DNA of 64,000 bases, from the NCBI GenBank assembly GCA_017882705.1, contig JADGOZ010000059.1, forward strand, positions 1-64,000, written 5' to 3'. The notes below the pieces were generated by a model, which searched no databases, was not told where the DNA came from, and saw nothing but the letters and a program-made list of their open reading frames with translations. The position numbers were made by a program, and so were the translations under genes. The DNA is from Candidatus Nanopelagicales bacterium. Lineage in GTDB: Bacteria; Actinomycetota; Actinomycetes; S36-B12; CAIYMF01. This document shows positions 8,545-45,407 of this stretch, in pieces. Each line of letters opens with the position of its first letter. Position 1 is the first letter of the stretch.

Positions 8545-9492
8545 TCAGCCAGACGAGGCCCGGGTGCGGGCCGCCCGCGCAGCCCGCTTCTCCTCGAAGC
8601 GGCTCGCCGTGGCGTCGAGCCCGGCCATGAACGCGGCCAGCCGCTCGCGTGCCGCCTCCCCGGCGGGCCCGAGGTCGGTGCGGTCCCACACGTCCCAGGC
8701 GCGCAGCACGGGCGCGAGGACCTCGTCGTAGTGGATCCGCAGGTCGTAGATCCCGGCCAGCGCGATCGTGAGCGAGCGGCGGGTGAAGCCCTCGACCTCG
8801 TTGCCCGGCATGGCGAAGTTCTCCACCGTGTCGAGCACCGCCTGCATCGAGGCGTCCGGGTCGATCTCGAACGCCGCGCCCATGACGTTGCGGTAGAAGA
8901 GCATGTGCAGGTTCTCGTCGGCCGCGATGCGCTGCAGCAGACGGTCGAGCCCGGGGTCCTCGGTGTGCTTGCCGGTGTTGCGGTGCGAGATGCGGGTGGC
9001 GAGCTCCTGGAAGGAGACGTAGGCCATCGTGGTGAGCACGTGGCCCTCGGCGTAACCCTCGAAGCCCCGGCTCATGTGGTGCATCCGCTCGCGCTCGAGG
9101 GCGACCGGGTCGACCGAGCGGGTCACGAGGAGGAAGTCGCGCATCGCGATCGCGTGACGGCCCTCCTCCGCGGTCCAGCGGTGGACCCACTCGCCCCACG
9201 CGCTGTCGCGCCCCACCGTGTCGGTGAGGGCGCGGTGGTAGCTCGGCAGGTTGTCCTCGGTGAGCAGGTTGACGACGAGCGCGGTGCGCGCGACGCCGTC
9301 GACGGGCGACTGCGAGGGGTCCCAGGCCTCGCCGGCGTAGAGGCCGTCGTAGTTCGTGCCCTCGGCCCACGGCACGTACTCGTGCGGGAACCACTCCTTG
9401 GCCATCGTGAGGTGCCGCTCGATCTCGGTCGCCACGACCGGGTCGAGCGCGCGCACGAGATCCGCCGGCGGGCGGTCGTCGAGGATGGTCAT
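8545..9492 (-). CDS. Acyl-ACP desaturase (ferritin-like di-iron)
   Basis: EEGRHAIAMRDFL and ADENLHMLFYRNV di-iron motifs. Confidence 0.9.
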   Translation of the reverse strand: MTILDDRPPADLVRALDPVVATEIERHLTMAKEWFPHEYVPWAEGTNYDGLYAGEAWDPSQSPVDGVARTALVVNLLTEDNLPSYHRALTDTVGRDSAWGEWVHRWTAEEGRHAIAMRDFLLVTRSVDPVALERERMHHMSRGFEGYAEGHVLTTMAYVSFQELATRISHRNTGKHTEDPGLDRLLQRIAADENLHMLFYRNVMGAAFEIDPDASMQAVLDTVENFAMPGNEVEGFTRRSLTIALAGIYDLRIHYDEVLAPVLRAWDVWDRTDLGPAGEAARERLAAFMAGLDATASRFEEKRAARAARTRASSG

Positions 9493-45025: not shown

Positions 45026-45207
45026 CCGGCGGCGCCGGCTGCGGGTTCCTCCTCGCTTCGGCACGGCTGCGTGCCGGTTCACCTCGGGCCGCGCCCCCGG
45101 CAACCCCGCGACACCCGGTCAGGGGCGATTCTCTCGGCGAAACCCTCGTGCGGTAGCGCCAGGAGGACGTACCGTCGTCCCACACGTGAGAGGAGGTGGT
45201 CCGATTC

Positions 45208-45246
45208 ATGAGTGAACATCGGATTCGTGAGGTGGCTGCCCGCTAG
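45208..45246 (+). other. Candidate 12-codon mini-ORF (MSEHRIREVAAR*) behind an extended Shine-Dalgarno sequence
   Basis: AGGAGGTGGTCC (45191-45202) is 11/12 identical to the anti-SD complement AGGAGGTGATCC, with the mismatch a permissible G.U; ATG 45208, TAG 45244-45246. Confidence 0.45.
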
Positions 45247-45305
45247 CCAGGACAGCCCGCTGACTGTGAGTCGCGTCCTTCCCGGCGCGAGTACCAGGCA
45301 GCCAC

Positions 45306-45382
45306 CGGACCCCCGGGTGTCGGCCCGTCCAGCCGATCCTCGCCCGTGTCACCGACACGGACGCGGCCCGCCCGGGGGTCTT
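45306..45382 (+). ncRNA. Candidate structured RNA (three-way-junction-like), strand inferred
   Basis: Closing stem GACCCCCGGG (45308-45317)/CCCGGGGGTC (45371-45380) perfect 10 bp; enclosed hairpins TCGGC-N7-GCCGA (45320-45336) and CCGTGTC-ACC-GACACGG (45344-45360). Confidence 0.5.
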
Positions 45383-45407
45383 CCACGTCCCGAGCGGGCA
45401 CCGGCGC

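Follow-up and report, generated by a model that had tools for sequence, protein, structure and literature searches.

Dual-function small RNAs such as SgrS, Spot 42 and RNAIII are autonomous small RNAs with a short translated ORF, and leader-peptide attenuators, for example the cysteine uORFs of mycobacteria, combine a short ORF, a strong Shine-Dalgarno sequence (SD), alternative pairings and a terminator. The RNA described here, from a window of 64,000 nucleotides (the whole stretch of DNA analysed), resembles both: it is autonomous and has a short ORF as in SgrS, Spot 42 and RNAIII, but its peptide is weakly conserved and its ORF is woven into the fold; it has the same SD-ORF-pairings-terminator layout as the leader-peptide attenuators, but is autonomous, without a regulated downstream gene. 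The closest described system is Rfam family RF02471 (Ms_IGR-5), so far entered by Rfam and by genome annotations as a non-coding, uncharacterised sRNA of Actinobacteria, and a conserved SD-like block and a terminator hairpin are common to the family and the window RNA. The name Ms_IGR-5 presumably goes back to the heterologous-Hfq study of M. smegmatis by Li et al. 2012. That study is cited in PMC4109619. No function of Ms_IGR-5 was found in the literature searched, which is weak evidence of novelty because most subscription papers lay outside the search, and a literature lookup of scr4389 as a candidate Streptomyces name of the RNA gave nothing. Other actinobacterial sRNAs, 6C RNA and Ms1, are likewise conserved and autonomous, and 6C homologues carry ribosome reads too (PMC4974804); the Rfam scan of the window RNA returned RF02471 alone, neither 6C nor Ms1.

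Identification of the RF02471 RNA

The RNA is located in the spacer between two convergent genes, one for a CPBP/Rce1-type protease (+) and the other for a rocD-like aminotransferase of class III (-); Pfam confirmed both assignments. After rereading of the window, each letter of the sequence features given in the original prediction was found at its position. The segment 45182-45387 (+) was assigned by cmscan to RF02471 with 81 bits against a cut-off of 45 (E 2.5e-16), the match being full-length (model positions 1-184 of 184), and our own covariance model R1 gave 134 bits on the window RNA, a sequence included in its training set. The suggestion of a new structured RNA class is thus replaced by membership of a known family; as far as the tools show, what is new is the translated ORF, a missing helix with a switch, and the cross-phylum range. 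The features of the locus, all on the plus strand, are as follows.

45140-45175 (+): promoter region, with an AAA tract some 40 nt before the start, a -10 TACCGT at 45170-45175 and a weak -35 (from sequence)
45182-45387 (+): whole RNA, RF02471 Ms_IGR-5, predicted 5' end ACAC at 45182 (cmscan; R1 model)
45191-45202 (+): extended SD, AGGAGGTGGTCC (from sequence; single such motif in the assembly)
45199-45202 (+): P1 5' strand GTCC, the 3' part of the SD, partner GGAT 45221-45224 (covariation)
45208-45246 (+): mini-ORF of 12 codons, MSEHRIREVAAR and stop (start, frame and stop kept in 148 actinobacterial loci)
45221-45224 (+): candidate switch strand GGAY in codons 5-6, partner of both SD and terminator loop (both pairings covary)
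45229-45234 (+): GAGGTG, SD-like hexamer within the ORF, separated from the stop by exactly 9 nt (present in 148/148 actinobacterial loci and in 35/35 others, counts that partly reflect sample selection)
45231-45240 (+): P2 5' strand GGTGGCTGCC, inside the ORF (covariation)
45297-45306 (+): P2 3' strand GGCAGCCACC, directly before the terminator (covariation)
45308-45380 (+): terminator-like hairpin with a 10-bp base stem and two inner hairpins (covarying base stem)
45308-45317 / 45371-45380 (+): base stem strands GACCCCCGGG / CCCGGGGGTC (from sequence)
45320-45336 (+): inner hairpin 1, 5-bp stem and 7-nt loop (from sequence)
45327-45330 (+): apical loop GTCC, pseudoknot (PK) partner of GGAT 45221-45224 (covariation)
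45344-45360 (+): inner hairpin 2, 7-bp stem and 3-nt loop (from sequence)

Judged against the universally conserved 16S tail (the 16S 3' end gave no match in the assembly), the SD is a nearly complete complement, and AGGAGGTGRTCC occurs once in the entire 3.56 Mb assembly, at the AGGAGGTGGTCC site. The predicted fold of the 45178-45400 transcript has an energy of -113.4 kcal/mol (z = -3.63), and none of 200 shuffles was equally stable. The unique AGGAGGTGRTCC, the z value of the fold, the Rfam match and the conserved start, frame and stop in 148 relatives together place the unit of SD, mini-ORF and fold beyond chance.

Elsewhere in the window, 9098-9165 (+) matched Rfam RF01781 ASdes with 75 bits. 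This match is antisense to a 315-aa ORF (8545-9492, -), acyl-ACP desaturase-like by eye, which is the usual cause of ASdes matches, and it was therefore not taken as evidence for an sRNA.

Distribution among bacteria

DNA searches detected the element also in the window's own genus and family, and a pattern scan of GTDB genomes gave at least 120 loci with named organisms; among the matches listed are Mycobacterium, Streptomyces, Nocardia, Nocardioides, Cellulomonas, Parafrankia, Micromonosporaceae, Amycolatopsis and Geodermatophilus and, beyond the Actinobacteria, Acidobacteria, Zixibacteria and one Spirochaetia MAG. The comparison set comprised about 180 relatives (148 actinobacterial and 35 other loci). 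The window genome falls in the same phylum as the Mycobacterium- and Streptomyces-like RF02471 matches, which fits the distribution in the family title, and within this phylum the Rfam model matched 70 of 396 genomes at E <= 0.001, with 35 above the cut-off. The Rfam title names Actinobacteria only, whereas homologues were found here in three further phyla: R1 matched 29 of 80 Zixibacteria, 15 of 149 Acidobacteriota and 4 of 80 Spirochaetota genomes, most of these matches being absent from its training set, and only one of the first seven non-actinobacterial loci (Zixibacteria L094, 55.9 bits) passed Rfam's own cut-off. As judged by these matches, the range indicates that the RNA is not confined to Actinobacteria and is older than recorded. 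Its occurrence within the window's order is patchy (8 of 119 genomes), and the RNA is therefore dispensable. A pattern scan of viral contigs for a phage origin gave no match, and this origin was dropped.

The transcription unit

Across the 148 actinobacterial relatives, TANNNT is found at -15 to -12 in 98%, before a nearly invariant ACA, and TTG at -39 to -34 in about 89%, so that comparison establishes a promoter from which the RNA is predicted to start at ACAC 45182, about 10 nt upstream of the SD. An A-rich tract at -46 to -41 in the same loci is UP-element-like and unusual in high-GC genomes; this tract suggests strong expression, and the RNA is probably strongly transcribed. The hairpin forms the 3' end of the RNA, and in low-GC relatives a U tract accompanies it. 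Transcription is on record for S. lividans (SLIV_16488; PMC8079986) and for S. avermitilis (PMC8780764).

The neighbours of the RNA differ from group to group. In Mycobacterium they are a PabC-like class-IV aminotransferase and a nitrobindin-like heme-binding protein of the THAP4 type, in Streptomyces a PdxH-like oxidase and a PAS protein; other relatives have many different genes, often convergent. With a conserved promoter and a terminator of its own among such varied neighbours, the RNA is shown by the comparison to be autonomous and not a leader. The mini-ORF had also been proposed as a leader peptide, which does not hold, the next gene being the convergent rocD and the downstream genes of relatives being different or on the other strand. 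A cis-acting attenuator, in which translation of the mini-ORF controls the terminator and hence the downstream gene, would account for the attenuator-like order of SD, mini-ORF, pairing strand and terminator, but the gene that follows runs convergently in the window, in Mycobacterium and in Streptomyces, and is an unrelated one in other relatives, so that a same-strand gene to be regulated was not found, and P2 (see below) lies beside the terminator stem without competing with it. We regard this explanation, largely refuted by synteny, as very improbable.

The mini-ORF as a reading frame

Within the 148 actinobacterial loci the start codon is TTG in 70, ATG in 65 and GTG in 13, and NTG stands exactly 21 nt (7 codons) before GAGGTG in 145, the other three being one codon off, while the distance from SD to start varies between 14 and 17 nt. 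In-frame stops between the start and GAGGTG are absent from all 148, in contrast to the many stops of the other two frames. In every locus checked, exactly three codons separate GAGGTG from the stop, the usage among the 148 being TAG 119, TAA 15 and TGA 14. The patterns used for gathering loci included the SD and GAGGTG, so that the conservation of GAGGTG and of the SD core GGAGGTG, invariant in aligned relatives, is partly a matter of sample selection; the start codon, its codon distance to GAGGTG and the stop were outside these patterns. This sequence comparison shows that the mini-ORF is under selection as a reading frame. The alternative of a purely non-coding sRNA, with the ORF as a by-product of conserved RNA sequence, predicts the fixation of third positions that is seen in GAGGTGRCT; it is nevertheless scarcely probable, in view of an NTG at fixed codon distance amid otherwise unconserved sequence and variable SD spacing, of the stop-free frame beside two frames with many stops, and of the exchange of TAG, TAA and TGA.

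The start, frame and stop are thus kept in relatives, and the absence of conservation that would have spoken against the original prediction was not observed. Its proposal of a translated sRNA is supported by the conserved frame and by published ribosome reads on the homologues of M. abscessus and M. smegmatis (PMC4974804), whose authors caution that non-coding RNAs can show ribosome footprints too.

The encoded peptides (each followed by a stop) are exemplified by MIDLWTCEVAAR in mycobacteria, MYDYRTREVAAG in streptomycetes and MSEHRIREVAAR in the window, and outside Actinobacteria by MSSNHSEVAET, MINTELSEVAAT, MDYDKCEVTDT and MQFNIRRTSEVAER. Codons 2-4 are variable at all three positions while codons 8-10 are fixed, third positions included. 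Because codons 2-4 are free while frame, start distance and stop are kept, it seems that being translated over this stretch is selected and not the peptide, and these codon statistics speak against a peptide function. This bears on the alternative of a dual-function sRNA of the SgrS or Spot 42 kind, a base-pairing sRNA with a functional peptide: the gene is that of an autonomous sRNA with a conserved ORF, for which translation is indicated by conservation and by the ribosome reads from the literature, and the C-terminal half has an RTREVAA-like consensus. A conserved amino-acid sequence was, however, not found, the fixation of the conserved C-terminal codons extends to their third positions, as explained by P2 and GAGGTG, and the peptide length ranges from 11 to 19 aa in other phyla, and we consider this explanation improbable.

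Covarying helices and alternative pairings

In a sequence-only MAFFT alignment, comparison reveals a long-range helix, P2, between GGTGRCTNNN of the ORF and NNNAGYCACC adjoining the terminator, which is lacking in the RF02471 consensus; the Rfam model also lacks PK, and the record as printed shows no ORF. P2 formed 1389 pairs against 1328.5 +/- 7.6 for shuffles (max 1351) and 383-600 for slid versions, and compensatory forms were observed such as GGUGACCAUC:GAUGGUCACC (L020) and GGUGGCUACG:CGUAGCCACC (L015). The base stem of the terminator shows changes on both sides in 9 of 10 pairs, with 95.6% of cells paired. In a second alignment of 43 sequences, the covariation of P1, P2 and terminator together was 0.364 against 0.191 +/- 0.009, and at most 0.107 when slid; the version of the structure with PK gave similar covariation.

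The covariation check proposed for the stems was thus run and did not go against them. Of the nested fold in the original prediction, the letters, the 10-bp stem and both hairpins stand, while the three-way junction does not: a junction around the mini-ORF was rejected, the outer stem being that of the 3'-terminal, terminator-like hairpin. Missing from that prediction were P2 and the alternative pairings of GGAT 45221-45224.

The stop context CGCTAGC (window 45241-45247 and relatives) can pair with GCTGGCG in mycobacteria, and in Zixibacteria the partner of ACTTAGC is GTTAAGT; such an extension of P2 over the stop codon may lie behind the excess of TAG (119/148). In one relative (G007 contig 87, L002/L009) the variable stretch from the stop to the P2 3' strand is longer than in the window by an insertion of about 60 nt.

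The GGAY strand of the ORF has two alternative (G/A)UCC partners, one in the SD (P1) and one in the terminator loop (PK). P1 gave 796 pairs against 752 +/- 5.6 for shuffles (z 7.8) and PK 842 against 779 +/- 7.2 (z 8.7), neither count being reached in 500 shuffles, and pairing fell away in the slid controls of both; as the shuffle controls ignore kinship, these z values overstate the significance. A three-way change to GAUCC in the SD, GGAU in the ORF and AUCC in the loop was found in Streptomyces-Kitasatospora and in Nocardioides L073, and its separate appearance in the latter is, as sequence evidence, more telling than the shuffle z values. Since one GGAY strand cannot pair with both partners, P1 and PK represent alternative states according to the comparison. 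The mutually exclusive covarying pairings expected of a two-state switch are therefore present, with moderate strength, the helices being short (4-6 bp).

Outside Actinobacteria, PK was recognised in one acidobacterial group and in spirochaetes, with GACCAGU:ACUGGUC (L119) and UGACCGGC:GCUGGUCA (L188), and was not evident in the loci checked of Zixibacteria and of one acidobacterial group with simple terminators. In the acidobacterial loci L183-L186 the part of the ORF that precedes GAGGTG shows complementarity to the 3' tail of the terminator (AAATGC:GCATTT, ACGCAA:TTGCGT), a pairing that perhaps stands in for the loop pseudoknot. In Zixibacteria and some Acidobacteria (L045, L084, L190-L200), GTTGGG/TTGTTNGGATT shows an extra pairing with the conserved AATCCCAAC block, possibly another alternative state.

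Discussion

We propose that the autonomous RF02471 RNA of about 200 nt is gated by ribosomes, its 12-codon ORF being also a structural strand, and give this reading an even chance of being correct. From the arrangement of the conserved elements we infer that a 30S subunit is captured through the nearly complete SD:anti-SD duplex and initiates at the mini-ORF, and that translation would melt PK and P2. With the stop codon in the A site, the spacing between the invariant GAGGUG and the last sense codon would be that of a normal SD, and the terminating ribosome may be held there. When initiation is scarce or slow, the RNA would fold and P1, PK and P2 would lock, so that ribosome engagement could be read out by the RNA as a ribosome-bound open form or a closed form. 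Action in trans might consist in the holding of 30S or 70S, or in making the 3' strand (AAUCCCA...CAGYCACC) accessible to other RNAs. The 12-aa peptide is presumably a by-product.

The chief alternative is that the RNA acts simply as a ribosome sponge or holding RNA, in which the near-complete SD and the internal SD trap 30S or 70S and damp translation, the fold being merely protective. It agrees with an SD that is close to the full complement of the 16S tail and unique in the assembly, with the constant 9-nt spacing between GAGGTG and the stop in all loci, and with strong-promoter features and ribosome reads in mycobacteria, but does not need the covarying PK and P1 alternatives, and we hold it to be rather unlikely. 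The dual-function sRNA, the attenuator and the purely non-coding RNA fit less well.

For the ribosome-gated RNA, the wider reading is that of a cross-phylum sensor or controller of ribosome engagement, which would capture ribosomes by the near-complete SD duplex and be switched between two folds when its ORF, at once a strand of the pseudoknot, is translated; we put it forward tentatively, as a possibility that is less likely than not. To our knowledge such switching has not been described for any small RNA. If the reading is right, this would be a translated RNA common to at least four phyla, present in easily handled mycobacteria and streptomycetes and with exactly defined base pairs and codons as targets for mutation; it would offer a tractable case of RNA structure set by ribosome occupancy, and would account for the published ribosome footprints on a 'non-coding' RNA.
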